Assembly (NCBI GenBank): GCA_002717625.1
Contig: PBEF01000002.1
Location: 127,338-191,337, forward strand
Reading direction: 5' to 3'
Length of the DNA stretch: 64,000 nt
Origin: Fidelibacterota bacterium
GTDB lineage: Bacteria > Fidelibacterota > Marinisomatia > SCGC-AAA003-L08 > D37C17
In this document: positions 46,428 through 64,000 of the stretch, one piece after another
How positions within the stretch are numbered: the stretch's first letter is position 1
Layout: every line of letters starts with the position of its first letter
Position numbers and translations under genes: made by a program
The notes under the pieces: model-generated
What the model was told of the DNA's origin: nothing
Seen by the model: the letters and a program-made list of their open reading frames with translations, nothing else
Database searches by the model: none

Positions 46428-47366
46428 TCAAGAGAATATATTTTTAAGTACGTATGAAGCTATTTTAGGATTTTCTTTAATTCTCCTTATTGAATAATCG
46501 TACCAATCTTTGCCAAAGGGTACGTAGGCCCTAATCTTAAAATTTTTATTTTTATACATTTCTATATGTTCATTCATAGGAACTCCATATAGATACTGAA
46601 ATTCAAATTTATTTTTTTCTATCCTTTCTTTCTCAACAAGTTTTACACATTCTTTTATTAAAGCCTTATCATGGGTTGCGATTGCAACATAAAGTTCCTT
46701 TTCAAGTGCTATCTTTAGAAGCTTTAAATAATTTTTATTTATTTCGTTATAATTTTGATATGCTATGCTGCTATCTTCCTTGTATATGCCTTTGCACAGT
46801 CTTATGTTAGATCCTTTTTCTAGCTTGTTTATATCTTTTTCTGTCCTATGTAGATAAGCTTGAAAAACAATTCCTATGTTGCTTGATGTCAATTTTAAAT
46901 CATTATATAGTTTTATGGTCGTATCAGTTAATTTTGAACTTTCCATATCAATTCTGATAAAATTATTATGCATGCTTGCTTCCTTTAAGATTTTTGTATA
47001 ATTAATTAAAAGAGATTTATAATTTAAGTCTGATCCGATATGACTAGGTTTAATAGATAGATTGCAATCAAGTTTCTCTATATTTATTTTATTTAATAGC
47101 TCAACATAAGCATTGGTTATATCGTTACACTCTTTAATTGATGAAGTATGTTCACCTAGAATGTCTATGGTTGCGGATTCTTTACGATAATTTAATATTT
47201 TCACAGCATTTAAAGCGTCACTGTTATCTATCCCTGCGACATATTTTTTAGAAAAAAATCGAACAACTCCCTTAGGCAAAAAAGGAATAATAGAAATAAT
47301 AATTTTATTTAAAAAAATCATATAAGAATTTAATTTTAAAATAATTCTTAAAAAACAGTAAAACAT
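46428..47366 (-). CDS. Proline dehydrogenase (stand-alone)
   Basis: NIRLCKGIYKE; VAIATHDKALI; FEFQYLYGVP; IRAYVPFGKDWYDYSIRRIKENP. Confidence 0.9.
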   Translation of the reverse strand: MFYCFLRIILKLNSYMIFLNKIIISIIPFLPKGVVRFFSKKYVAGIDNSDALNAVKILNYRKESATIDILGEHTSSIKECNDITNAYVELLNKINIEKLDCNLSIKPSHIGSDLNYKSLLINYTKILKEASMHNNFIRIDMESSKLTDTTIKLYNDLKLTSSNIGIVFQAYLHRTEKDINKLEKGSNIRLCKGIYKEDSSIAYQNYNEINKNYLKLLKIALEKELYVAIATHDKALIKECVKLVEKERIEKNKFEFQYLYGVPMNEHIEMYKNKNFKIRAYVPFGKDWYDYSIRRIKENPKIASYVLKNIFS

Positions 47367-47436: not shown

Positions 47437-47868
47437 ATGTATAACGATTATATTCCAGTTGTAGTTTTTACGGCTCTTGCGATAGGTCTGCTTGCAGCAC
47501 CTCTTGTTATCCAGCATTTAGTCTCTCCAAGGCATAATAAAAGAAATGATAAGCTCATGTCATATGAATGCGGTGAGGTGCCAGAAGGTTCAGCATGGGT
47601 TAAATTCAATGTGCGATTTTATATAATAGCTCTTGTTTTTATTATTTTTGATGTTGAGGTTGTATTTTTATTTCCTTGGGCAGCTGTTTATCAATCTTTT
47701 ATAGCTCAAGGACAAGGTCTGTTAGTTTTATTTGAAATGTTGATGTTTGTTATTATTCTTACAGTAGGATTTGCATATGTTTGGGTTAAAGGAGATTTAG
47801 ATTGGGTTAAGATGCAATTGAAATATGCGCATGGAAGATATTCAAAATTAGGAGTAGATAAAAAGTAA
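47437..47868 (+). CDS. nuoA: NADH-quinone oxidoreductase subunit A (alternative TTG start at 47416)
   Basis: [41 protein letters not shown]. Confidence 0.95.
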
Positions 47869-48383
47869 TGGAACATGTAAAAGATGATTTCACATTGCTG
47901 GAAAAATTTAAAGAAGACAATGTTGTTGTTGCAAAATTAGACGATTTGATTAATTGGAGCAGGGCTGGATCCCCTTGGTTTTTTCAGTTTGGTCTTGCAT
48001 GCTGTGCTATTGAAATGATGGCCGCTGCTGGCCCAAGGCATGATCTTGAAAGATTTGGTTCTATGCCAAGAGCTACTCCCAGGCAAGCAGATGTTATGAT
48101 TGTGGCCGGAACTGTGACCCTTAAAATGGCTGATAGAGTAAAGCGTTTATTTGAGCAAATGGCGGAACCTCGATATGTAATATCTATGGGAAGCTGTGCA
48201 AATAGTGGCGGTCCATATTGGCAGCATGGTTACCATGTATTAAAAGGTGTTGATTTAGTTGTGCCTGTTGATGTATATGTCCCAGGTTGCCCTCCTAGGC
48301 CAGAGGCATTAATTCAAGGTATTCTGGAGCTGCAGAAAAAGATAAAAACAGAAACTCCATTAAGGAAGACTGCTGATGAGTAA
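47868..48383 (+). CDS. nuoB: NADH-quinone oxidoreductase subunit B
   Basis: [38 protein letters not shown]. Confidence 0.97.
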
Positions 48384-48837
48384 AGAATTATTTGTAAAAA
48401 AATACAGCGATAAAGTAGAAGCTTTGGATAATGGGTCTTTTCTAGTTTCATATGAAGACTGGAAAGATATGAGTAAACATATTAATAAGATTGGTTTTGA
48501 TTATCTTATGTGTATCACTTCATATGATTTAGCTGTAGATGAGAAATTAGGCTTAGCATATAATTTTTACTCTACAGATAAGAAAGAGTATTTAGAAATT
48601 AGAATAGAATTCCATAATTCAGATAAAATTTTTAGTGTAGCAAATATATGGCGTACTGCAAATTGGCATGAAAGAGAAGCCTATGACATGATGGGAATTT
48701 TATTTGATGGTCACCCTGATATGAAGAGAATTTTGTTACCAGAGGATTGGGAAGGACATCCTTTAAGAAAAGATTGGAAAGAGCCTGATTTTTACAATGG
48801 TATGCCTGTTCCAAAAGATAAAAGTTATTGGGAATAA
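48376..48837 (+). CDS. nuoC: NADH-quinone oxidoreductase subunit C
   Basis: [39 protein letters not shown]. Confidence 0.96.
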
Positions 48838-49977
48838 ATGTATAAAATTTTAGATAAAAGTATAATCGGTGCAGATGAAATGGTTCTTAATATGGGACCT
48901 CAGCATCCTAGCACCCATGGAGTTTTACGATTAAAAATTGTTACAGATGGAGAGGTTGTAAGCCATATAGAACCTATTATAGGCTATCTACATAGATGCT
49001 TTGAAAAGCACTGTGAAAACTTAAGCTATGAACAGATAGCTCCATTTGCTGATCGCTGTGATTATCTCGCTGCAATGCATATGGGGCATGCATATGCTAT
49101 TTCAGTAGAAAAATTGCTGGGTATTGAAGAATTGCCCTCAAGGGTTGAATATATAAGGGTGATTCTAGCTGAATTTCAAAGAATTTCAAGTCATTTAATT
49201 GCTATTGGAGTCTTTGGTCTAGATGTGGGAGCAATAACTCCATTTACATGGACTTTGAGAGACAGAGAGAGAATAATAGATTTATTTGAGCAAGTTACCG
49301 GAGCAAGATTATTGTATAATTATATTTGGCCAGGAGGCTTAGCTCATGATTTGCCTCCCACTTTTGTCAATAAGGCATTGGAATTTCTTGATTATTTTGA
49401 ACCTCAAATTGAAGAATATAATAATCTTTTAACAACAAATAAAATTTTTATAGAGAGGTCTGCAGATGTAGGTGTTATGCCTAAAGATGTGGCTATCAAC
49501 TATGGTGTCACAGGACCTAGTCTTAGGGGGAGTGGAATGCCCTTTGATTTAAGAAAAGATGAACCTTATTCAATATATAGTAAGTTTGATTTTGATGTTC
49601 CAATTGGTGAAGGTTTAATGGGTACCGTAGGTGACTCATGGGACAGATATTATGTTAAAGTATTAGAAATGAAAGAAAGTATTAAAATTTTAAGACAAGC
49701 ATTACCTCAAATTCCAGATGGAGATGTTCAGTCTGCGTTGCCAAAGAAAATTCGCCCTAAAAAAGGTGAAATCTATTCTAGATATGAAACTGCACGAGGA
49801 GATGTTGGGTTTTATATTAGAAGTGGTGGTAAAAATACGCCAACTAGATTAAAGATGCGTTCTCCTGCTTATTGCAATCTATCTGTTTTAAATGAAATAT
49901 CTGCAGGATGGATGATTTCCGATGTTATAACTGTATTAGGAAGTCTTGATATTGTATTAGGAGAGATAGATAGATGA
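48838..49977 (+). CDS. nuoD: NADH-quinone oxidoreductase subunit D
   Basis: MVLNMGPQHPSTHGVLRL; DRCDYLAAMHM; GDVGFYIRSGG. Confidence 0.97.
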   Translation: MYKILDKSIIGADEMVLNMGPQHPSTHGVLRLKIVTDGEVVSHIEPIIGYLHRCFEKHCENLSYEQIAPFADRCDYLAAMHMGHAYAISVEKLLGIEELPSRVEYIRVILAEFQRISSHLIAIGVFGLDVGAITPFTWTLRDRERIIDLFEQVTGARLLYNYIWPGGLAHDLPPTFVNKALEFLDYFEPQIEEYNNLLTTNKIFIERSADVGVMPKDVAINYGVTGPSLRGSGMPFDLRKDEPYSIYSKFDFDVPIGEGLMGTVGDSWDRYYVKVLEMKESIKILRQALPQIPDGDVQSALPKKIRPKKGEIYSRYETARGDVGFYIRSGGKNTPTRLKMRSPAYCNLSVLNEISAGWMISDVITVLGSLDIVLGEIDR

Positions 49978-51092
49978 CCTCTGCGCTTGATTATCTTATT
50001 GAATTATTAGCTTTTACTGGTTTAGATCATTCTATATTAGTTGTTTTAGCCATTCATATTCCAGCTTTAGCTATATTTCTTGTTATGGTTGTTAACGCGA
50101 CTATTGCAGTTTATGTTGAAAGAAAAGTTGCAGCTTTTATGCAAGACCGTTTAGGTCCAATGGAAGTTGGCCTATTTGGCTTTAAAGGAGGCAGAAGGTT
50201 TTGGGGTGGCATTGGCCAAACAATTGCCGATGCTATTAAATTGTTAACTAAAGAAGATATAGTCCCAGATAATGCTGATAAAAAGCTGATGCTTTTAGCT
50301 CCATTTATTATTTTTATTGGCGCTTTCCTTACTTTTATTGCAGTTCCATTTTCTGAAAATTTAGTTGTTTCAGATTTTAATGTAGGAATTTTTTACATAA
50401 TAGCAATGAGCTCTGTCGGTGTTATTGGTATAATATTAGCAGGGTGGTCATCAAATAATAAATGGTCTTTGTATGGAGCGATGCGAGCTGCAGCTCAAAT
50501 AGTCAGCTATGAAATACCTATAGGTTTAACTTTATTGTTAGTTGTTATAGTTGCGGGAAGTCTTAATCTTGGTGATATTGTTCAATGGCAAGCAGATAAT
50601 AGATGGTTTATTATTCATAGTCCATTTACATTTGTTGCATTTTTTATTTATTTTATATCTGTAGTGGCAGAAACAAATAGAACTCCCTTTGATATTCCTG
50701 AAGCTGAGTCAGAATTAGTCGCAGGTTGGATGACAGAATATTCTGGATTTAAATGGGCTATATTTTTTCTTAGTGAATACGCTAATATGCTTATTGTGAG
50801 CATTGTTGCATCTGTAGTATTTCTTGGAGGATGGCTTTCTCCATTAGCAATACTTAATATTGGAATTCCAGAAAGCTGGATGATTTTAGACGGTCCAATT
50901 TTAGGCTTTTTCTGGGTTATGTTAAAGGCATTGTTCTTAGTTTTTGTAATGATGTGGTTTAGGTGGACTTTTCCAAGGCTTAGAGTTGATCAACTGATGT
51001 ATCTGTGCTGGAAAGTATTTATTCCATTTTGTTTAGCAAATTTATTTTTTGTATCAATATGGGAATTAATATCAGGAACAATTTTTAGATAA
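49974..51092 (+). CDS. nuoH: NADH-quinone oxidoreductase subunit H
   Basis: YVERKVAAFMQDRLGPMEVG; ETNRTPFDIPEAESELVAGW. Confidence 0.97.
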   Translation: MTSALDYLIELLAFTGLDHSILVVLAIHIPALAIFLVMVVNATIAVYVERKVAAFMQDRLGPMEVGLFGFKGGRRFWGGIGQTIADAIKLLTKEDIVPDNADKKLMLLAPFIIFIGAFLTFIAVPFSENLVVSDFNVGIFYIIAMSSVGVIGIILAGWSSNNKWSLYGAMRAAAQIVSYEIPIGLTLLLVVIVAGSLNLGDIVQWQADNRWFIIHSPFTFVAFFIYFISVVAETNRTPFDIPEAESELVAGWMTEYSGFKWAIFFLSEYANMLIVSIVASVVFLGGWLSPLAILNIGIPESWMILDGPILGFFWVMLKALFLVFVMMWFRWTFPRLRVDQLMYLCWKVFIPFCLANLFFVSIWELISGTIFR

Positions 51093-52018
51093 TGAGTGAA
51101 TATATAAATAATATTATTTATGGCGTTAAATCTTTTATTACTGGAATGAATTTGACTTTAAAACATTTTAGAAATAAAAAGGATTTAGTAGCAACATTGC
51201 AATATCCAAATGAGAAATGGCCCCTGCCTGAAAGGAATATAGGTTTTGACCCATCTGAATACAATGTTATCAGGTCAAGATTACATGTTGATATAGATGA
51301 TTGCATTGGTTGCCTTCAATGCGAGAGAGCATGTCCTGTAGATTGTATTAAAATTGATACAATTAAGCCTCCAAAAGGAAGTGATTTTGACTGCGGAAAA
51401 ACATCGCATGATACTCAGAAAAAAATGATTGTTCCACGTTTTACTATAGATATGTCTGAATGTATGTATTGTGATCTTTGCGTGCATCCTTGTCCTGAAG
51501 AATGTATTTATATGGTAGGTGGTCCTAATGAGCCTAAACATGAAATAGATTATGAGTTTAGTCAATACGAAAGGCATGGTTTAGTCTTTGAATTTGCTAC
51601 TGCTACTGATCAGGATATTATTGATATTGGAGCAGAGGATTATTTAAAAGAAAGAAAAGCAAAAGAAGAAAAAAGGATTAAGGGTGAAAATTTAAAAGGG
51701 GTAGTACATCAAGAAGATTCTGTATCATCTGCATTATCAGATCCTATCACTCCAGTTGCAGCAGCTCCAGTTGCAGCAGCTCCAGTTGCAGCAGCTCCAG
51801 TTGCAGCAGTTCCAATTGATTTTAATATTAAATCTATAGATTTTATAGAAGATAAGACTGTAAGAGGTACAGCTAAAAAAGCATTTATGGGTGCTAAGCG
51901 TGCAAAATTAGAAGGTGCAGCAATGATTGATTTTATTATAGCCGAATTGGATAAAGCTTCAAAACTTGATGATGATATTAAGAATACCTTGGAAGGATTT
52001 AAAGGAGGCAAGAATTAA
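51092..52018 (+). CDS. nuoI: NADH-quinone oxidoreductase subunit I with unusual C-terminal Ala/Pro linker plus helical extension
   Basis: CIGCLQCERACPVDCI and CMYCDLCVHPCPEECI 2x[4Fe-4S]; PVAAAPVAAAPVAAAPVAAVP linker. Confidence 0.93.
   Translation: MSEYINNIIYGVKSFITGMNLTLKHFRNKKDLVATLQYPNEKWPLPERNIGFDPSEYNVIRSRLHVDIDDCIGCLQCERACPVDCIKIDTIKPPKGSDFDCGKTSHDTQKKMIVPRFTIDMSECMYCDLCVHPCPEECIYMVGGPNEPKHEIDYEFSQYERHGLVFEFATATDQDIIDIGAEDYLKERKAKEEKRIKGENLKGVVHQEDSVSSALSDPITPVAAAPVAAAPVAAAPVAAVPIDFNIKSIDFIEDKTVRGTAKKAFMGAKRAKLEGAAMIDFIIAELDKASKLDDDIKNTLEGFKGGKN
51751..51810 (+). repeat. 15-bp tandem repeat x4 (tccagttgcagcagc) encoding the (PVAAA)n-type linker in NuoI
   Basis: Three identical copies and one with a terminal c->t change, read directly. 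Confidence 0.97.
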
Positions 52019-52524
52019 TGCCGATTCCAGATTTAGGAATATTATTGTTTTTAGGTTTATGTGGGCTAATTGTAGGATCTGCTTTTATGGTGGTTACTTC
52101 TCCTAATTTAGTTCATTCTGCAGTATCTTTACTTTTTACATTTTTTGGTATTGCTGCAATTTATATATATTTATATGCAGATTTTATTGCTGCTACACAA
52201 GTTGTTGTATACGTTGGAGGTATTCTTGTATTGATTATTTTTGGTGTTATGCTTACTAATAAAATTGAAAATGCGACAATAACATCTAAAACTCATAATC
52301 AGATTCCAGGGGCTTTGTTTTCAGGAATTTTATTGTTATTACAGTTTTACGCTATATTTAATACTAAATGGTTGGTTAATGATAATCCTGAGAAATCCAG
52401 TACTGTTATGGATATTGGAGAACTCCTATTAGGTAAATATCTGTTACCGTTTGAAGTTGTATCTATTTTATTGTTATCTGCATTAATTGGAGCTGCTATG
52501 TTATCAAGAAAGAAGGTAGACTAA
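52018..52524 (+). CDS. nuoJ: NADH-quinone oxidoreductase subunit J
   Basis: NLVHSAVSLLFTFFGIAAIYIYLYADFIAATQVVVYVGGILVLIIFGVML. Confidence 0.95.
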   Translation: MPIPDLGILLFLGLCGLIVGSAFMVVTSPNLVHSAVSLLFTFFGIAAIYIYLYADFIAATQVVVYVGGILVLIIFGVMLTNKIENATITSKTHNQIPGALFSGILLLLQFYAIFNTKWLVNDNPEKSSTVMDIGELLLGKYLLPFEVVSILLLSALIGAAMLSRKKVD

Positions 52525-52833
52525 ATGGACTATATACAGCCTTACTTAATGTTATCCTCTATTCTTTTTTCGATGGGTATTTATGCTGTTATTACAAGAA
52601 AAAATGCAGTAGCTATACTCATGGGGATAGAACTGATTTTGAATGCATGTAATATTAATTTTGTTACTTTTAATAGATTCGGAAATTTTGCAACACTAGA
52701 TGGACATGTTTTTACAATGTTCGTGATTGTCCTTGCAGCAGCAGAAGCTGCAGTTGCTCTTGCTATTATAATAAATTTGTTTAAAAATATTGGAACAGTT
52801 GATGTGGATCAAGCTAAGGAGATGAAAGGCTAA
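52525..52833 (+). CDS. nuoK: NADH-quinone oxidoreductase subunit K
   Basis: NAVAILMGIELILNACNINFVTFN...MFVIVLAAAEAAVALAII. Confidence 0.96.
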   Translation: MDYIQPYLMLSSILFSMGIYAVITRKNAVAILMGIELILNACNINFVTFNRFGNFATLDGHVFTMFVIVLAAAEAAVALAIIINLFKNIGTVDVDQAKEMKG

Positions 52834-54890
52834 TGAATGAGACTTTGCAGATAGCAGCCTTCCTTTTATTACCTATATTATCATTTATTGTTTTAATATT
52901 TTTTGGTAAAAAATTAAATGGGCATTCATCTACTTTAGGTCTATCCCTAATGGGGCTTATGTTGTTGAATGCTTTAATATTAATAGTTAATGCAGAGCCA
53001 TACAACCTTACAGCGAAAACTTATGAAAAATGGTCAATTTATAATTCTTTTGAATGGTTCTCTACTGGTAATTTATCTGTTTATTTAGGTTATTATGTAG
53101 ACAACATAACAGCTATAATGTTATTAGTGGTAGCTCTTATAGGATTTCTTGTGCATCTATATTCTACGGAGTATATGAAAGGTGATCCCCGGTATTCTCG
53201 ATATTTTGCATTTTTAGGAATTTTTATATTTTCTATGAATGGTATAGTCCTTGCAGATTCTCTGATTATGATGTATATATTCTGGGAATTGGTAGGCTTA
53301 AGCTCTTTTCTTTTAATTGGATTTTGGTTTGAAAAAGATAGACCTCCTATGGCTGCTAATAAAGCATTCTTAACAAATAGAGTAGGAGATATAGGAATGT
53401 TTATTGGTATTATGATTCTTTATTTCCATGTAGGTTCATTTAATATTAAAGAAATTGTAGGCGGTGTTTCTGAAATGGATCCTGGTTTACTTACATTGGC
53501 AGGTTTATTAGTGTTTATGGGTGCAATTGGTAAGTCTGCACAGTTTCCATTGCATATTTGGCTTCCAGATGCTATGGAAGGGCCTACACCTGTTAGTGCC
53601 TTGATTCATGCTGCTACAATGGTTGCTGCTGGTGTCTATATGACATTTAGAATTTTTCCATTTTTAACTCCAGATGCTTTGGCTGTTGTTGCTGTAATTG
53701 GTGCTATAACAGCACTTATGGCAGCTATAACTGCTATTACAAGAAATGACATAAAAGCTGTTCTTGCATATTCTACAATTAGTCAGTTAGGATATATGAT
53801 TATGGCATTAGGTGTAGGTGCTCCAGTTTATGCATTTTTTCATTTAGTGACTCATGCAATGTTTAAAGCATGTTTATTCTTATGTAGTGGTTCAGTAATA
53901 CATGCTATGCATCATTCCTTACATCATCTAGATGATCATCATACAGATCCTCAAGATATGAGTAATATGGGTGGCTTAAAGGATAAAATGCCTATCACTC
54001 ATGCGGCTATGCTTATATCTACTTTAGCAATAGCTGGAGTTCCATTCTTTTCAGGTTTTTTATCTAAAGATGGGATTTTAGCAGCTGTTTTATCATATTA
54101 TTATAAATATGATGGATGGACAATTATTCTTCCAATTGCAGGTTTTGGGGCTGCGATGATTACAGCTTTTTATATGTTTAGGTTGATATTTAAAACTTTT
54201 TATGGGATACCAAAAAAGAAAGATATTTATAAGCATATACATGAATCTCCTTTAGCTATGACTATCCCTTTGATGTTATTGTCAGTCTTAAGTTTTGCCT
54301 TTGCTTTTACTGCCAATTTAAATCCATTGAAAAGCTGGGGATGGTTTAAGGCTTTAATTTATAAGTATGGAAAAAATCATAATTTTTTAAATATGAAATA
54401 CGTTAATAGCGGAATAGAATCAGCACATTATGATGCAATGTATTTATCGCTATTTGTTGCTTCTATAGGTATTGCATTATCTGTTTTAATCTATTATTTA
54501 AAGAAGGTAGATGTTGATAAAATAGCCAATTTATTTAATTTAGTAGGCCTTTATAGTTTATCTAAAAATAAATTTTATATTGATAAGATATATAATATGA
54601 TTTTCTATAAGCCGTTTTTATTTCAAACAAGGACAGCATCTTTTATTGATTGGGATATCTACGATCAAAAGATTGTTGATGCATGGGGTTGGATTACTTT
54701 GAAAATATCTAAATATACAGGAATTTCAGACTATAGTATACTTGATCAAAAGATTATTGATGGGACATCTCATTTAACGCAATATGTTTCAACAAAATTA
54801 AGAAAAACACAGTCAGGTGTAATACAAAATTATTTGCTTGGTGTATTGGCAATACTCGTTGTTTTTATAATAGTTATTAACCAAATATAA
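52833..54890 (+). CDS. nuoL: NADH-quinone oxidoreductase subunit L
   Basis: STEYMKGDPRYSRYFAFLGIFIFSM; LPDAMEGPTPVSALIHAATMVAAGVYM. Confidence 0.97.
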   Translation: MNETLQIAAFLLLPILSFIVLIFFGKKLNGHSSTLGLSLMGLMLLNALILIVNAEPYNLTAKTYEKWSIYNSFEWFSTGNLSVYLGYYVDNITAIMLLVVALIGFLVHLYSTEYMKGDPRYSRYFAFLGIFIFSMNGIVLADSLIMMYIFWELVGLSSFLLIGFWFEKDRPPMAANKAFLTNRVGDIGMFIGIMILYFHVGSFNIKEIVGGVSEMDPGLLTLAGLLVFMGAIGKSAQFPLHIWLPDAMEGPTPVSALIHAATMVAAGVYMTFRIFPFLTPDALAVVAVIGAITALMAAITAITRNDIKAVLAYSTISQLGYMIMALGVGAPVYAFFHLVTHAMFKACLFLCSGSVIHAMHHSLHHLDDHHTDPQDMSNMGGLKDKMPITHAAMLISTLAIAGVPFFSGFLSKDGILAAVLSYYYKYDGWTIILPIAGFGAAMITAFYMFRLIFKTFYGIPKKKDIYKHIHESPLAMTIPLMLLSVLSFAFAFTANLNPLKSWGWFKALIYKYGKNHNFLNMKYVNSGIESAHYDAMYLSLFVASIGIALSVLIYYLKKVDVDKIANLFNLVGLYSLSKNKFYIDKIYNMIFYKPFLFQTRTASFIDWDIYDQKIVDAWGWITLKISKYTGISDYSILDQKIIDGTSHLTQYVSTKLRKTQSGVIQNYLLGVLAILVVFIIVINQI

Positions 54891-54902
54891 GAATAGGACA
54901 TT

Positions 54903-56483
54903 ATGGAAAATTATATATTAACATTATTAATATTTTTACCAGTTTTAGGTGCGATTTTGATGCTTCCTGCATCAAAATATATTAAAGTTCCTAATATTGT
55001 TAAATATATAGCTTTAGCTACAACTGGAATACAGATTCTTCTTGCAGCTTGGCTGTATATGAATTTTGACCCTTCATTATCTGTAATGGAATCACCGTTC
55101 ACTGTTCAATTAAAATGGATAGAACATTTTAATATTGAGTATTTTGTAGGGGTTGATGGCTTAAGTATACCTATGGTTCTTTTAACTGCATTATTATCTT
55201 TTATATGCATCTTGGCAAGTTGGAACATTGAAAAAAAGACTCTTGGATATTTTTCATTGTTTTTATTACTTGATGCTGGCATGATGGGGGTATTTTTAGC
55301 ATTAGATTTTTTCTTATTCTATATTTTTTGGGAAGTGATGTTGTTACCTATGTATTTTCTTATTGGTATATGGGGTGGCCCTCAGCGTCACTATGCTGCA
55401 ATTAAGTTCTTTTTATATACTTTATTTGGCTCACTGTTTATGTTGCTTGCGATGATTGGGTTATGGTATTTTACAGCTCCGTTTAATGGTGGCGATGGAA
55501 CTTTTAATTTAATTAGGTTGATTGAATTAGCCCCTCAGATAGATGCACAATTATGGGGTTGGAATGTGCAGTGGTTATTATGGATAGCATTATTTATTGG
55601 TTTTGCAATTAAAGTTCCTGTATTCCCTTTCCATACATGGCTACCTTTAGCTCACGTAGAAGCACCAACTGCAATATCAGTTATACTTGCAGGTGTACTT
55701 TTAAAAATGGGCACATATGGCTTACTTAGGATAAGTTACCCGCTTTTACCTGGTGAAGTTGTCGCCTTTTCTTATACTCTGGCAATACTGGGAGTAATAA
55801 ATATATTATGGGGAGCAATGTGTGCTATCGCTCAAATTGATTTGAAAAAAATGGTTGCGTATTCATCTGTCAGCCATATGGGTTACGTTTTATTGGGGAT
55901 GTCAGCTGCTGTTAGTCCAAGTTTAGCCGGTGCTGAAGCTGGCTTAAATGGTGCTGTGATGCAAATGTTTAATCATGGTACGATTACAGCAATGCTATTC
56001 TTGTTGGTTGGAGTATTATATGATCAAGCGCATCATAGATGGATTGTTTATCCAGAAAATCATGAGAACCAAGAATTAGCAGGAAAACTAGCTTTTGGTG
56101 GCTTAGCATCACAAATGCCAATATTTTCAGCTTTTGTTGCACTTGCATTTTTTGCAGGACTTGGTTTGCCTGCATTATCAGGTTTCATAAGTGAAGCTTT
56201 ATGTTTTATAGGTGGTTTTAGTGCATTTAGATTAGTAACAGCTATTGGTACTTTAGGTATTTTACTTGGTGCTGTTTATTTATTAAGAGCGTATCAAAGA
56301 GTATTTTTAGGTCCTTTAAATTCATCATATGCTGATTTAAAAGATATAAATTTACGAGAGTTAGGAACAGTTGTTCCTATAGCATTTTTGGTTTTATTAT
56401 TTGGAGTATTTCCAAAACCATTGGTTGATATGGTAAGTAGCTCAATTAGTTCACTTGTTTCCATTATTCAGGGAGCAATGTAG
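54903..56483 (+). CDS. nuoM: NADH-quinone oxidoreductase subunit M
   Basis: FYIFWEVMLLPMYFLIGIWGG; FPFHTWLPLAHVEAPTAISVILAGVLLKMGTYGLLR. Confidence 0.97.
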   Translation: MENYILTLLIFLPVLGAILMLPASKYIKVPNIVKYIALATTGIQILLAAWLYMNFDPSLSVMESPFTVQLKWIEHFNIEYFVGVDGLSIPMVLLTALLSFICILASWNIEKKTLGYFSLFLLLDAGMMGVFLALDFFLFYIFWEVMLLPMYFLIGIWGGPQRHYAAIKFFLYTLFGSLFMLLAMIGLWYFTAPFNGGDGTFNLIRLIELAPQIDAQLWGWNVQWLLWIALFIGFAIKVPVFPFHTWLPLAHVEAPTAISVILAGVLLKMGTYGLLRISYPLLPGEVVAFSYTLAILGVINILWGAMCAIAQIDLKKMVAYSSVSHMGYVLLGMSAAVSPSLAGAEAGLNGAVMQMFNHGTITAMLFLLVGVLYDQAHHRWIVYPENHENQELAGKLAFGGLASQMPIFSAFVALAFFAGLGLPALSGFISEALCFIGGFSAFRLVTAIGTLGILLGAVYLLRAYQRVFLGPLNSSYADLKDINLRELGTVVPIAFLVLLFGVFPKPLVDMVSSSISSLVSIIQGAM

Positions 56484-56486
56484 TAG

Positions 56487-57941
56487 ATGAATAATCTTCA
56501 AAGCATACAATATTTTTTACCAGAATTACTAATTGTACAATTAGCTTTATCAATTATTATATTAGATCTATTGTCACTTAAAAGATGGGTTAATATATGT
56601 GTTTATATAGGTTTAGGGTGCTCTGCTTTGCTTCTATGTCAACTATCATCTCCCATTGATGGCTTTCATATTTTTAATGGTATGTTAATTAATGATTCAT
56701 TTTCTTATTATTTTAAGTGGATTATTTTAATTTCTACAGCTTCTATTATTGTTATATCTAATTACTCAAAAGAGCTCGATAGAGAGTATTCAGTAGAGTT
56801 TAATGCTATGATATTATTTGTTTTACTTGGAATGTTTTTGATGACAAATTCTATAGATTTACTGATGATTTATCTATCTATAGAACTTGTTAGTATTCCA
56901 TCTTATGTGCTTGCGGGTATATTAAAAAATGATAAGAAATCTAATGAGGCATCATTAAAGTATGTTATATTTGGCTCTTTTGCTTCTGGCTTAATGCTGT
57001 TTGGTTTAAGTTGGCTTTATGGGATTTCTGGATCAACAAATATTTACGATATATATAATTCATTAGCTCTCGTTGAAAGCCCTTACATGATATATATATC
57101 ATTAATGCTTATACTTGTTGGCTTTGGGTATAAAATATCAATGGCTCCTTTACACTATTGGACTCCAGATGTTTATGAGGGTTCTCCAACAGTTGTAACA
57201 GCATTCTTTTCTGTAGCACCAAAAGCTGCAGGTTTTGCAATACTTATTAGAACATTCTCAATATTATTTACAGATGCAAATTCTTTATCTGTTAATACAT
57301 TTCCTATACATAATGTGAATTGGTCTCTTGTAGTTGCTGTTTTATCTGCAATCACTATGTCTATAGGTAATTTGTTAGCGCTAAAACAGGATAATGTGAA
57401 AAGGATGCTAGCTTATTCAACAATATCACACGTTGGTTTTATGTTGATGGCCTTTTCAACAACGTCAGTAGAAGGCAACATAGGAATTATGTTCTATTTG
57501 GCTATGTATATGTTTATGAATTTATCAGCATTTTTTATGGTTATTCATGTAGAAAATAATTTTAATGTAAAAAATATAGAAGATTGGTCAGGAATAGGAT
57601 ATAAATCACCTGTTTTATCAATATTTATGGTTTTATCATTAGTATCTTTAGCAGGTCTTCCTCCAACTTCTGGTTTTGTTGGAAAGGTGTATTTGTTTAG
57701 AACATTATTTGCAACTGAGCAATTTTATTGGCTTGGTATAGTTGCAATATTAAATAGTGTTATATCTTTATACTATTATTTTAAAATTGTAAAAAGCATG
57801 TATTTTAGCGAAAAGGTAATTGAAGAAAAAGAAAACATACAAGCCCCTGTTTATACTCTGATCGTACTGTTTTCTGCACAAAATATATTGTTCTATATGT
57901 ATTGGTCAGATTTATATAATTATATAAAAGGCTTATTTTAA
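56487..57941 (+). CDS. nuoN: NADH-quinone oxidoreductase subunit N
   Basis: SIELVSIPSYVLAGI; APLHYWTPDVYEGSPTVVTAFFSVAPKAAGFA. Confidence 0.96.
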   Translation: MNNLQSIQYFLPELLIVQLALSIIILDLLSLKRWVNICVYIGLGCSALLLCQLSSPIDGFHIFNGMLINDSFSYYFKWIILISTASIIVISNYSKELDREYSVEFNAMILFVLLGMFLMTNSIDLLMIYLSIELVSIPSYVLAGILKNDKKSNEASLKYVIFGSFASGLMLFGLSWLYGISGSTNIYDIYNSLALVESPYMIYISLMLILVGFGYKISMAPLHYWTPDVYEGSPTVVTAFFSVAPKAAGFAILIRTFSILFTDANSLSVNTFPIHNVNWSLVVAVLSAITMSIGNLLALKQDNVKRMLAYSTISHVGFMLMAFSTTSVEGNIGIMFYLAMYMFMNLSAFFMVIHVENNFNVKNIEDWSGIGYKSPVLSIFMVLSLVSLAGLPPTSGFVGKVYLFRTLFATEQFYWLGIVAILNSVISLYYYFKIVKSMYFSEKVIEEKENIQAPVYTLIVLFSAQNILFYMYWSDLYNYIKGLF

Positions 57942-57943
57942 GA

Positions 57944-58429
57944 TTGGAAAAAGTAAAATTCGTAAAAGATTCTCAAGTGATTATGCATGAGCTTGTATTA
58001 CCAAATGATACAAATTTACTAGGTAATGTTTTAGGTGGCCGTGTTATGCATTTAATGGATATTTGCGCTGCAATGTCAGCGTATAAGCATGCAAGACGCC
58101 CAGTGGTGACAGCTTCTGTAGATCATCTTGATTTTTTAGCTCCTGCTAAAAAAGGAGATATACTTATTTTAAAATCTTCTGTTAACTTTACTCATCAAAC
58201 TTCTATGGAGGTTGGGGTTAGAATAGAAGCTGAAACTCCATTAACAGGGAAGGTGTATCATACAGCAACTGCATATTTAACTTTTGTTGCATTAAATGAT
58301 AACAATAAACCTACTAGAATTCCACTTGTGAATCCTGAAACTGATAAAGAAAAGTATAGATTTAAAGAAGCTCAAAGAAGACATAAAGAAAGAATTAATA
58401 GACTTAAAGAATTGAAAAATAAAAAATGA
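57944..58429 (+). CDS. Hotdog-fold acyl-CoA thioesterase (TTG start)
   Basis: LPNDTNLLGNVLGGRVMHLMDICAAMSAYKHARRPVVTASVDHLDFLAPAKKGD. Confidence 0.9.
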   Translation: MEKVKFVKDSQVIMHELVLPNDTNLLGNVLGGRVMHLMDICAAMSAYKHARRPVVTASVDHLDFLAPAKKGDILILKSSVNFTHQTSMEVGVRIEAETPLTGKVYHTATAYLTFVALNDNNKPTRIPLVNPETDKEKYRFKEAQRRHKERINRLKELKNKK

Positions 58430-59739
58430 ATTCATTTAAAATAACCAAAGGTCATAATCTAAAGTTATCAGGAATTCCATCAAAAAAAATAATTGATGTG
58501 AAGTCCCCATCCTCTATATTTTTTCATCCATCTTCTATAAAAAATATAAAAACAAAGTTACTTGTAAAAGAGGGAGATAGTGTTAAAGTTGGTTCTCCAT
58601 TGTTTTATGATAAAAAAAATGAAAAAGTTTTATTTGTAAGTAGTTGTTCTGGAACTGTAAAAAAGATACAGTTTGGACAAAGACGAATAGTAGAAATTAT
58701 TGAAATCGAGAATGATAAAAAAAATATAGTTTTTGATAATCTTGATAGAGACGTGAGTAAGGAAAATTTCTTAAAATCTGGCTTATGGCCTTATTTAAGG
58801 CAAAAGCCATATTCAAAGATCCCTCATTATTCTATAAATCCAAAGTCGATTTATATATCAGCGATGCCTACAGAGCCATTTGCTCTTAATTATGAATCTT
58901 TAATGAAGAATAGCATCAAGTCTATTCAGTTAGGAATAGATGTGTTAAAGAAAATCTTTGATTGTGAAATTAATTTTACAAGCTTAAACGAAAGTATCTT
59001 TTCTAATTTATCTAATGTTAATCACTACAGTTTTAATAATCTCCACCCAGCTGGGAATATAGGTGTGCAAATTCATCATATTGACCCAATAAAAAACGGT
59101 GATGATATTCGTTTTTATTTAACTTTACAGGATTTAGTTCGTATTGGAGAATTCTTTAATATGAAAGATTATCCCAATTTAAGATATATCAGTATTGGTG
59201 GTAATGGTATAGATAATCAAGCTATCTATAAAGTTTTAATAGGTACTTCAATTCAAGATATTATAGATTCTGATTTATCGAAGGATATACAGATTATTTC
59301 AGGTGATGTTTTAAATGGAAAAATAACAGTAAAAGATAATTCATTAAATTTTCATGATGAAGTTTTATCTATGATTAAAAATGATAATAAACGTCAATTT
59401 TTAGGTTGGTTGATGCCTGGATTTAAAAAATATAGTTTAACAAAAGCATTCTTTTCTAAATTGTTAAATAATAAAGGTTCTGAATTATCTACAAATAAAA
59501 ATGGTAGTATTCGTACAATTGTTCCTATGGGAAATTGGGATAGGGTTATGGCTATGAATATTATGTCTGAATATTTAGTGAAAAGTATATTGGCTAATGA
59601 TATTGATATGATGGAAAAGTTGGGAATTTATGAGTGTTCTCCTGAAGATTTTTCTTTATGCGCATTTATATGCCAGTCAAAAGTTGAAGTCTCTAAAATT
59701 ATAGAAGATGGTTTAGATATTATGGAGAGTGAGGCATAA
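58426..59739 (+). CDS. nqrA: Na+-translocating NADH-quinone reductase subunit A
   Basis: ITKGHNLKLSGIPSKKI; LHPAGNIGVQIHHIDPI; overall length and position. Confidence 0.93.
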   Translation: MNSFKITKGHNLKLSGIPSKKIIDVKSPSSIFFHPSSIKNIKTKLLVKEGDSVKVGSPLFYDKKNEKVLFVSSCSGTVKKIQFGQRRIVEIIEIENDKKNIVFDNLDRDVSKENFLKSGLWPYLRQKPYSKIPHYSINPKSIYISAMPTEPFALNYESLMKNSIKSIQLGIDVLKKIFDCEINFTSLNESIFSNLSNVNHYSFNNLHPAGNIGVQIHHIDPIKNGDDIRFYLTLQDLVRIGEFFNMKDYPNLRYISIGGNGIDNQAIYKVLIGTSIQDIIDSDLSKDIQIISGDVLNGKITVKDNSLNFHDEVLSMIKNDNKRQFLGWLMPGFKKYSLTKAFFSKLLNNKGSELSTNKNGSIRTIVPMGNWDRVMAMNIMSEYLVKSILANDIDMMEKLGIYECSPEDFSLCAFICQSKVEVSKIIEDGLDIMESEA

Positions 59740-60866
59740 TGCTTAGAAAATTATTAGATAATGTAGAACAAAAAATTCTTAGTAATGAGAAGTTAAAAAA
59801 ATTCCATCCATTGCATGATGCCCTTGATACTTTTTTATATAGCACTAACACCAAAACAGAGCATGCCCCATATGTAAGAGACGCAATTGATTTAAAACGT
59901 ACTATGATTTTAGTTGTTTTAGCTCTTCTTCCAGCATTCTTCTTTGGTACTTATAATGTAGGATTACAATCTCCTGAAGTTGTAGATAAAGATTTTTTGA
60001 CATGTTTTTTATATGGATTGAAAATAGTTCTTCCTATGTATTTGATTGTTTTTGCAGTAGGAGGCTTATTTGAGGCTATTTTTGCAGTAATTAGAGGACA
60101 TGAAATTAATGAAGGGTTTTTAGTGACGGGTTTTTTGATTCCTCTTACAATGCCGCCAACAGTACCTTTGTGGATGTTGGCTGTAGCAACAATTTTTGGA
60201 GTAGTAATTGGTAAGGAAATTTTTGGAGGAACAGGATATAATATTTTTAATCCAGCATTAACTGCTAGAGCATTTTTGTTTTTTGCGTATCCATCCTATA
60301 TGTCTGGAAATAAACCTTGGATAGCTCCTTTAGATGGACTTTCTCAAGCAACACCATTATTACAAAAATCATCAAACTTAGATATTACGTATAGTTGGTG
60401 GGACATGTTTTATGGCTACATTCCAGGGTCCGTTGGAGAAACTTCAACGTTAGCTATATTAATAGGGGCCTTTGTATTACTGATAACTGGAATTGGTAGC
60501 TGGAGAGTGATGTTATCTACATGCCTGGGCCTTATCTTTACTTCAACATTATTAAATCAATTAACTGGAGTTTCAGATAACCCTATGCTTGGATTAACAG
60601 CTTTAGAGCATTTTGTTATGGGTGGCTTTGCTTTCGGTATGGTTTTTATGGCAACAGATCCTGTATCAAGTGCTCAGACAAATAAAGGGAGATGGTTTTA
60701 TGGTTTATTAATTGGCTTTATGGCAATAGTTATACGTTGTATTAATCCTGCCTATCCAGAGGGTATGATGTTGGCTATTTTATTTGCAAATGCATTTGCT
60801 CCTTTATTTGATTATTTTGTTATACAGTCTCATGTTAAAGGTAGACAATTATCTTATGAAGAATAA
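59739..60866 (+). CDS. nqrB: Na+-translocating NADH-quinone reductase subunit B
   Basis: APYVRDAIDLKRTMILVVLALLPA; GGTGYNIFNPALTARAFLFFAYP; DGLSQATPL flavinylation-type motif. Confidence 0.95.
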   Translation: MLRKLLDNVEQKILSNEKLKKFHPLHDALDTFLYSTNTKTEHAPYVRDAIDLKRTMILVVLALLPAFFFGTYNVGLQSPEVVDKDFLTCFLYGLKIVLPMYLIVFAVGGLFEAIFAVIRGHEINEGFLVTGFLIPLTMPPTVPLWMLAVATIFGVVIGKEIFGGTGYNIFNPALTARAFLFFAYPSYMSGNKPWIAPLDGLSQATPLLQKSSNLDITYSWWDMFYGYIPGSVGETSTLAILIGAFVLLITGIGSWRVMLSTCLGLIFTSTLLNQLTGVSDNPMLGLTALEHFVMGGFAFGMVFMATDPVSSAQTNKGRWFYGLLIGFMAIVIRCINPAYPEGMMLAILFANAFAPLFDYFVIQSHVKGRQLSYEE

Positions 60867-61566
60867 GTACGCATTTATATTAACCATTACAGTGATTTGT
60901 AGTTTATTGCTTTCATTAGTATCTGAAGTATTAAAGGAACGTCAAAGTAAAAATATTGCAATTGATAGAAAAAAAAATATATTAAGCGCTGTAGGTGTTG
61001 ATATAAGTAAGTTTTCTATTCTAGATATAGATCAATATTTTATTGATAATATTGATACGTTGATTATAACAACAGAAGGTTCTGTTGTTAATAATATATC
61101 TATAGAATCTCTTTTTGAAAAAGAGAATAGTCAGACAGGCGAAATTAAATATTTCGATCAAAAAGAAGAAGAATTTTTACCTATTTATACTGAAAAGGCT
61201 TCTAAGGCAATTATTTTACCTGTATCAGGTAAAGGTTTATGGGGCTCATTGTATGGATATTTTGCATTAGATGCAGATAATTTTTCTACTGTTAAAGGGA
61301 TAACTTTTTATAAGCATAAAGAAACACCTGGTCTTGGAGCAGAAATTTCAGAAAAATGGTTTCAATCAAATTTTATTGGGAAGGAAATTTATGGCAATGA
61401 TGTTTTAACATCTATTAATGTTACAAAGGCAGGCTTAGCTGATAAATCTGCTTTACATGAAGTAGATGGAATTAGCGGTGCAACAATAACAAGTAACGGT
61501 GTTACTGATTTGTTAAAGAGAGATTTAAAACGATATGAACCATACTTTATTAAAAATAAGAAATGA
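60856..61566 (+). CDS. nqrC: Na+-translocating NADH-quinone reductase subunit C
   Basis: [26 protein letters not shown] flavinylation motif; start moved from 60784 to the internal ATG at 60856. Confidence 0.93.
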
Positions 61567-62156
61567 AAAATAAAAAAACATTCATAGATCCACTTGTAGA
61601 TAATAATCCTATAACAAGACAAGTGTTAGGGATTTGTTCTGCTCTTGCTGTAACTGTAAAAGTAGAACAGGCGTTGGTAATGACATTTGCTCTAACTTTT
61701 GTTCTTGTGATGTCTAATGTCAGTGTCTCTTTGCTTCGGAAGTATATTCCCTCTAGTATACGAATTATAGTTCAATTAACAATTATTTCAACTTTGGTAA
61801 CTTTAATAGACCAGTTTTTAAAGGCATATATGTATGATATTAGCAAACCTATGAGTGTCTTTATAGCGCTTATTATAACAAATTGCATTGTAATGGGACG
61901 AGCAGATGCTTATGCGATGCAGAATAACGTTAAAGATTCGTTTTTAGATGGATTTGGAAATGCTCTTGGATATGGAATAATTCTTGTTCTTGTTGCATTT
62001 TTTAGAGAACTTCTAGGTTTTGGAACAATATTCGACATTAAAATATTACCAGATTTTTTAAATAATGGATTAATGTTATTGGCTCCTGGAGCTTTTATAA
62101 TTTTAGGATTGATTATCTGGGCACAAAGGTCTATTACAAATTTTGTAGAGGAATAA
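61563..62156 (+). CDS. nqrD: Na+-translocating NADH-quinone reductase subunit D
   Basis: [52 protein letters not shown]. Confidence 0.95.
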
Positions 62157-62157
62157 A

Positions 62158-62784
62158 ATGGATTTATTGGTACACTATTTAAGTTTAGCAACAAAAGCAA
62201 TTTTTATAGAGAATATACTTTTAGCATATTTTCTTGGAATGTGTTCATTTTTAGCTATATCTAAAAATGTTGAAGCCTCAATGGGTATAGGTAAAGCTGT
62301 TATATTCGTTAATGGTATAACAGTACCTTTAAACTGGGTAATAAAAACTTATTTGTTAGATGATGGCGCATTATCTTGGACTGGGATTGAATCTCTTGCT
62401 AGTGTTGATTTATCATTTTTAACATTTATTTGCTTTATTGCAACAATTGCTGCACTTGTTCAATTTGTTGAAATGTTTATAGATAAATTTAGTCCTTCAT
62501 TATATAACTCTTTAGGTATATTCTTGCCACTTATTACAGTGAATTGTTCTATTCTAGGAGCATCTGTATTTATGGATGAAAGAGGTTATACACTTGGAGA
62601 ATCTGCGGTTTTTGGTGTTAGTGCTGGTGTTGGTTTTTACTTAGCAATTGTATGTATGGCCGCAATTCGATTTAAACTAAGATATTCAAATATTCCTGAT
62701 GGTTTAAAAGGACTTGGTATAACGATGATTTTAACAGGGCTTTTATCAATGGCTTATTTATCATTTTCAGGAATTCAATTATAG
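62158..62784 (+). CDS. nqrE: Na+-translocating NADH-quinone reductase subunit E
   Basis: [55 protein letters not shown]. Confidence 0.95.
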
Positions 62785-62799
62785 GAGAAATATAATATT

Positions 62800-63144
62800 A
62801 TGAAAAAGAATAAATTGTTTGCTCTAGGTGCTTTAGGTGTTTTAGGTGTTGTAGTGGCTGCTATTAACTTAGCAATAGGTATTTTCCTTATTAAGATACT
62901 TTGGACTACTATTGCTGAGGCTTTATTTTCTAAGCTTGTTGAATCTGGCCAAATAAGTACATCAATGTCTTGGAAAGATGCATTCTGGATAGGACTTTTT
63001 CTATATTTTGTAATAAGAGCATTTGCTGGAAACTTATTAAATGTAACAAAAGAAGGAAATAAAACAACTGTTAGCATGGGAGATTCAGATGCAACTATTC
63101 ATGGTAAAGATTCAGAAAATAAGAAAGAAAATAATAAAGATTAA
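62800..63144 (+). CDS. Small two-TM membrane protein inserted between nqrE and nqrF, function unknown
   Basis: ATG ORF with GGAG SD upstream; two hydrophobic segments and a charged C-terminal tail; sits in an otherwise compact nqr operon. Confidence 0.75.
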   Translation: MKKNKLFALGALGVLGVVVAAINLAIGIFLIKILWTTIAEALFSKLVESGQISTSMSWKDAFWIGLFLYFVIRAFAGNLLNVTKEGNKTTVSMGDSDATIHGKDSENKKENNKD

Positions 63145-63150
63145 TAAATT

Positions 63151-64000
63151 ATGCTAGCTACAACTATATCATCTGTATTTGTTTTTTCTTTAGTTATTTT
63201 AATCTTAGTTATTTTGCTTGGTGTTGCTGAGAAAAGATTGTTACCTCAGGGAGATGCTAAAATTTTGATTAATGGAGATGATGAAAAATCTCCAACAGTA
63301 AAGCCTGGAGGTTCCTTATTATCATCTTTAGCAGGGCATAATGTTTTTATTCCATCTGCATGTGGAGGAGGAGGAACTTGTTCGCAGTGCAAATGCCGGG
63401 TTCTCAGTGGAGGAGGAGATATATTGCCTACTGAGGTTTCTCATTTTTCAAGATCTGAAATTCAAGATAATTATAGGCTTGCTTGTCAGGTAAAGGTTAA
63501 AGGTGATATGGAAATTAAAATTCCTGATGAAATATTTAGTATAAAAAAGTGGGAGTGTACTGTTAGGAGCAATGATAATGTTGCAACTTTTATAAAAGAA
63601 TTAGTCCTAGAGCTTCCTGATGGTGAGATTCTTGATTTTGAATCTGGAGGGTATATTCAAATTGATATCCCCGAATATGAGCTTAAGTATTCAGAGTTTG
63701 ATATTGAGGAACAATATAGAGAAGATTGGGATAAGTTTAAAATGTGGGATTTGGTTGCTAAAAATAATAATTCTGAAGAGTTTAGAGCATATTCTATGGC
63801 TAATCACCCTGCAGAAGGTAATATTGTAATGCTAAATGTAAGAATTGCACATCCTCCTCCGCAACAGTGGGATGCTCCTCCAGGGATAGCTTCTTCATAT
63901 ATTTTTAATTTAAAGCCAGGTGATAAGGTAACTATTTCAGGTCCTTATGGAGAATTTTTCATCAAAGATACTGAGCGGGAGATGGTGTATGTGGGTGGTG
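63151..64000 (+). CDS. nqrF: Na+-translocating NADH-quinone reductase subunit F (3' truncated by window end)
   Basis: [16 protein letters not shown]...RLACQVKV 2Fe-2S motif; [13 protein letters not shown] flavin motif; absent from the ORF track because no stop lies in the window. Confidence 0.94.

Follow-up and report, generated by a model that had tools for sequence, protein, structure and literature searches.

An 11-subunit complex I lacking the NADH module and an exchangeable NADH dehydrogenase share one locus in Fidelibacterota (Marinimicrobia, SAR406)

Gene organization of the locus

The 64,000-nt stretch of DNA analyzed here (hereafter designated the window) carries, up to its downstream edge, the genes of an 11-subunit respiratory complex I (nuoABCDHIJKLMN, hereafter nuo11), an acyl-CoA thioesterase, and the genes of a Na+-pumping NADH dehydrogenase (nqrA–F, Na+-NQR), as listed in Table 1. 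The co-directional, near-contiguous order nuo–thioesterase–nqr, already described in an initial annotation, was borne out; the distances between adjacent genes range from −11 to +15 nt (negative values denote overlaps). Within nuo these are A–B −1, B–C −8, C–D 0, D–H −4, H–I −1, I–J −1, J–K 0, K–L −1, L–M +12, and M–N +3; at the border between the two complexes, nuoN–thioesterase +2 and thioesterase–nqrA −4; and within nqr, A–B −1, B–C −11, C–D −4, D–E +1, nqrE–orf114 +15, and orf114–nqrF +6. A terminator or strong promoter separating nuoN from nqrA had been named as an observation that would speak against a single transcript; no terminator-like site was found between these genes, and promoter-like sites from nuoN to nqrA occurred only at the frequency of shuffled sequence. 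This tight spacing on one strand, uninterrupted by an internal terminator, suggests that nuo and nqr are transcribed as an operon. The earlier wording "fused head-to-tail" is appropriate for the gene order but not for the proteins, none of which is fused, and the earlier gene list was right in order, strand, and gene identity but overlooked the 114-aa open reading frame between nqrE and nqrF. This orphan, probably a membrane protein, is missing in G231 of the same genus and in other family members.

Table 1 Features of the nuo–nqr locus in window coordinates
Feature	Position	Strand	Remarks	Family evidence
Proline dehydrogenase	46428..47366	−	Divergent; upstream anchor of the island	NCBIfam ProDh_Thermus, E 3e-62
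nuoA	47437..47868	+		
nuoB	47868..48383	+	N2 cluster Cys intact	TIGR01957, E 4e-69
nuoC	48376..48837	+		TIGR01961, E 6e-35
nuoD	48838..49977	+	Quinone-site motif GPQHPSTHG intact	TIGR01962, E 1e-131
nuoH	49974..51092	+		
nuoI	51092..52018	+	308 aa; two 4Fe-4S motifs, Ala/Pro linker, C-terminal helical domain	
NuoI C-terminal helical domain	51785..52015	+	~60 aa; one copy	Profile match, 3e-23
nuoJ	52018..52524	+		
nuoK	52525..52833	+		
nuoL	52833..54890	+		
nuoM	54903..56483	+		
nuoN	56487..57941	+		TIGR01770, E 9e-117
4HBT acyl-CoA thioesterase	57944..58429	+	nuo/nqr junction	PF03061, E 6e-16
nqrA	58426..59739	+		TIGR01936, over cut-off
nqrB	59739..60866	+	FMN motif DGLSQAT	TIGR01937, over cut-off
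nqrC	60856..61566	+	SGAT; start set at MKNKYAF	TIGR01938, over cut-off
nqrD	61563..62156	+		TIGR01939, over cut-off
nqrE	62158..62784	+		TIGR01940, over cut-off
orf114 (orphan)	62800..63144	+	114 aa; between nqrE and nqrF	Matches no family
nqrF	63151..64000	+	Cut by window edge; 2Fe-2S motif	TIGR01941, over cut-off

In the genome, nqrF is complete (409 aa) and ends 380 nt past the window. It is directly followed, with a 23-nt overlap, by apbE (PF02424, E 9e-83) and, 196 nt past apbE, by a gene for an nhaD/CitMHS-type antiporter. Beyond lie genes read as DHH phosphoesterase, dcd, ispH, pdxS, pdxT, and dxs-like, names that come from sequence reading without a family search. Cofactor and catalytic motifs are intact in both complexes. 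The sequence features expected of a Na+-NQR are present, namely NqrA–F scoring over the curated cut-offs, the motifs by which NqrB and NqrC bind FMN covalently, the 2Fe-2S motif of NqrF, and ApbE; by homology, Na+ transport would be coupled to NADH oxidation by this enzyme.

The host genome (G000; 1.49 Mb in 23 contigs) encodes all of NuoA–D and NuoH–N but lacks the NADH-binding NuoF that marks a 14-subunit complex I: domain searches of the genome gave no match for NuoE or NuoF, and there was no NuoG homologue at E ≤ 0.001. The proposal of an 11-subunit complex without an NADH module, drawn originally from the window, thus holds genome-wide, and no nuoEFG genes that would restore a 14-subunit complex were found elsewhere in the assembly, which is 89.7% complete. 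Moreover, NuoF was not found in five further genomes of this family, the most complete at 96%, so that the gap is not explained by incompleteness.

Conservation of the linkage within the class

Among 149 genomes of the phylum Fidelibacterota, NqrA and NuoN both scored over cut-off in 63. Forty-three of these belong to the same class as the window, and in 42 of the 43 the two gene sets lie on one contig in the same direction, about 0.1–4 kb apart and mostly ≤0.6 kb. An arrangement that recurs in this way is far beyond chance; the linkage is ancestral in the class as a whole, and the comparison of synteny among relatives, which had been recommended at the outset, came out in favor of the adjacency. 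The sole exception in the class is G044, where nuo and nqr lie apart. The remaining 20 genomes with both complexes (families f20 and f25) represent another class and have nuo and nqr on different contigs. In Bacteroidota and SAR86, 34 NqrA loci were compared, and none had nuo genes in its flanks (up to 10 kb, many shorter).

The island is framed by conserved anchors. Upstream, the divergent proline dehydrogenase gene occupies the same place in families f1, f4, f6, f10, f11, f14, and f18 and in a nuo-less metagenome-assembled genome (PBGO01, locus L061, see below); downstream, the anchor is apbE–nhaD–DHH–ispH–pdxS. In f1, f3, and f18, the thioesterase gene marks the junction whether NQR or a 14-subunit complex I follows; in the PBGO01 genome, it precedes nqrA.

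In family f5 (loci L050, L109, and L111 of G012, G068, and G101), nuoB is absent from the 11-subunit nuo cluster; G012 and G068 carry it as a lone gene on a separate contig. Its position near an OFOR in G068 was taken as chance, the arrangement not being kept in G012.

Exchange of the NADH dehydrogenase behind nuoN

In genomes without nqr, a second nuo operon, this one including NuoE, F, and G, follows immediately behind nuo11. NqrA scored over cut-off in 88 of the 149 genomes, and none of these is among the 23 with bona fide NuoF, an exclusion for which a Fisher value is not a probability because the genomes are related. The place after nuoN is thus an exchangeable slot, occupied by NQR or by a 14-subunit complex I but in none of the 149 genomes by both. 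At least five changes between the two enzymes are needed to explain the slot on a tree built from the NuoD/H/L/M/N proteins of nuo11 (quick method, single run), and one switch falls inside a single genus (g19). Here, G048, G104, and G106 have the order nuo11–nqrA–F–apbE–nhaD, and G072 has nuo11–apbE–14-subunit nuo–nhaD, with the same downstream genes as its nqr-bearing congeners. The apbE of G072 (L101–L103), kept between the two nuo clusters, is probably a remnant of an earlier nqr locus. Since the tandem consists of two H+ pumps in many relatives, the initial suggestion that H+ and Na+ circuits are controlled together is less general than it appeared from the window.

The nuo position in relatives without complex I

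The closest named NqrA (44%) comes from the PBGO01 genome, assigned to Candidatus Neomarinimicrobiota, which groups inside the window's family on the NqrA/B/D/E/F tree and has no NuoB. Its order is proline dehydrogenase–flavin reductase (235 aa, FAD/NAD)–thioesterase–nqr–apbE–nhaD. Family f4, with genomes of 0.8–1.0 Mb, is likewise without nuo; at the six loci examined, the nuo position is taken by a 402-aa GltD/NfnB-like flavoprotein. Different reductases at the nuo position in two lineages would be expected if the electrons handled by nuo11 must otherwise reach NAD(P)H. The 235-aa and 402-aa proteins are accordingly named here only as candidate ferredoxin:NAD(P) reductases, an identification that is uncertain. 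The 402-aa flavoprotein as a strict replacement of nuo11 is weakened by its orthologues elsewhere in some genomes that bear nuo11 together with a 14-subunit complex I.

Electron donor and proposed model

The host genome encodes KorAB, 2-oxoglutarate:ferredoxin oxidoreductase (G000:C21), an acidic ferredoxin of 100 aa (26 acidic against 7 basic residues), and a further ferredoxin-like protein of 113 aa, and no match over cut-off to the E1 component of 2-oxoglutarate dehydrogenase was found in 21 genomes including this one. From this combination, reduced ferredoxin probably arises in central metabolism. Given that the neighboring slot always holds an NADH dehydrogenase, acceptance of ferredoxin electrons by nuo11 is the economical reading. 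Collectively, the gene content and the occupants of the slot favor a donor other than NADH, presumably ferredoxin. The co-occurrence of KorAB and nuo11 was discarded as evidence, OFOR being uninformative with its presence in 148 of 149 genomes, including f4; the latter must have another outlet for ferredoxin, and the donor argument is therefore circumstantial.

We consider it fairly probable (about 0.65) that the island places an H+-pumping complex I fed by ferredoxin next to an NADH dehydrogenase that can be exchanged, giving two complementary quinone reductases. KorAB in the TCA cycle would generate reduced ferredoxin, which (perhaps together with flavodoxin) would pass its electrons through the 11-subunit Nuo to quinone with pumping of H+. 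NADH would be oxidized by the enzyme of the slot, here Na+-NQR with pumping of Na+ and in other lineages the 14-subunit complex I. ApbE would flavinylate NqrB and NqrC, and the nhaD-like antiporter would exchange Na+ for H+, both functions being assigned from sequence. The position of the antiporter gene, two genes past nqrF, fits a linked H+/Na+ economy.

A possible, though rather unlikely, alternative is that the adjacency is an inherited neighborhood of small genomes, in which the two complexes are transcribed and regulated separately and the slot was exchanged by recombination through conserved flanks without functional pairing. The trees of nuo11 and nqr agree in broad outline; DHH, ispH, and pdxS are also conserved neighbors without a functional link; and G044 and families f20 and f25 manage without the linkage. 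Against this stand the overlaps and 2-nt gaps that run across nuoN–thioesterase–nqrA–nqrB with no terminator, and the fact that the replacement in the slot is always another NADH:quinone oxidoreductase. Complex I is a reversible enzyme, and the 11-subunit complex might accordingly work mainly in reverse, the proton gradient driving the reduction of ferredoxin by quinol to supply reductive synthesis; we regard this as improbable, since KorAB already makes reduced ferredoxin in a genome without 2-oxoglutarate dehydrogenase and an outlet is needed rather than a source. That NADH is the donor after all, through a divergent, undetected NADH module or one in the missing ~10% of the assembly, is very improbable, because the search that found neither NuoE nor NuoF in the host, nor NuoF in its five relatives, recovered the 23 bona fide NuoF of the phylum.

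Comparison with known systems

Cyanobacterial and chloroplast NDH-1 likewise has 11 core subunits and ferredoxin as donor, together with dedicated ferredoxin-docking subunits. Such docking subunits were not found here, and the C-terminal domain of NuoI is unrelated to them. Bacteroides fragilis resembles the window in having an 11-subunit Nuo without EFG and NQR as its main NADH enzyme: its Nuo has no NADH activity, its NQR has, and deletion of nqr, but not of nuo, alters NADH oxidation (PMC7002350). Unlike in the window, nuo (BF638R_0850-0841) and nqr (2136-2141) lie at distant loci in that organism (PMC7002350). For the 11-subunit complex I of D. hafniense, with the same subunits as the Nuo of the window, ferredoxin has been proposed as electron shuttle; this organism is a strict anaerobe, and an adjacent NADH dehydrogenase is not reported in the available part of that paper (PMC11238625). 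The ferredoxin reading of nuo11 agrees with both the D. hafniense proposal and the B. fragilis deletions.

The same complexes have been described in the same phylum. The main text of Getz et al. (2018, mBio; PMC6143742) reports NQR, canonical complex I (cNDH), and a noncanonical form lacking the NADH subunits (nNDH) across Marinimicrobia, suggests flavodoxin-like alternative donors for the noncanonical form, and notes that canonical complex I largely replaces NQR in mesopelagic lineages. In SAR406, whether the NADH enzyme pumps Na+ or H+ was shown to track depth. That main text presents presence or absence per genome; the terms "operon," "locus," and "gene order" do not occur in it, and it does not describe the linkage, the single slot, the apbE relic, the reductases that stand in place of nuo, or the repeat domain of NuoI. 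The initial annotation treated the enzyme set without this publication and also missed the class-wide linkage and the slot exchange. We found no later paper on nuo–nqr linkage in the open-access collection searched. The enzyme set was thus already known; apparently new are the linkage across the class, the exchange of the slot, the flavin reductases in place of nuo, and the domain on NuoI.

SAR406 bacteria are numerous in the ocean and have for the most part not been cultured, and one slot next to an unchanging, presumably ferredoxin-fed complex I offers a concrete genetic basis for the choice between Na+ and H+ in its NADH enzymes. The five or more independent switches, with the neighboring complex unchanged, amount to a natural experiment, and the flavin reductases of the nuo-less relatives, together with a NuoI domain at a possible docking place, open a testable route to what feeds the 11-subunit complex.

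A repeat domain on NuoI

The helical domain at the C-terminus of NuoI is present in one copy here and in up to five copies (3 to 5 in many) in relatives of the same taxonomic order. A profile search found it in 96 of 245 genomes. Its sites are the NuoI C-terminus in the window's taxonomic order and, in G102, the NuoC N-terminus, apparently also in other f6 and f11 genomes; in other families it occurs in membrane-anchored SRPBCC-like proteins. AlphaFold, run on the single sequence, predicted a four-helix unit with confidence (pLDDT 83), and no significant match was found in Pfam, PDB sequences, or PDB folds.

The location of the domain on the peripheral arm invites the guess of a donor-docking or scaffold role. 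The further idea that the tandem of nuo11 and NADH dehydrogenase is a physical as well as functional unit, and that the NuoI/NuoC repeat domain shared with membrane-anchored SRPBCC/START-like proteins of the phylum, is a new module that holds the donor or adjacent respiratory proteins at the uncapped end of the complex I arm, is improbable. A charge-based argument for ferredoxin docking by the domain was rejected, the net charge per copy being only −2 to +4, and so was a lipoyl/E2-type origin of the Ala/Pro linker, the other carriers being SRPBCC-like proteins.

G044 (L128, L127), the one class member in which nuo and nqr are unlinked, also lacks the NuoI repeat domain. Membrane-anchored SRPBCC/START-like carriers contain three to four copies (L184:2913-4343, L193:2511-3821, and L182:3662-4864), and in L193 and L195 such a carrier gene adjoins cytochrome oxidase assembly genes. 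In G121, a 233-aa Cys-rich protein (L188:3534-4235) bears one copy at its C-terminus.
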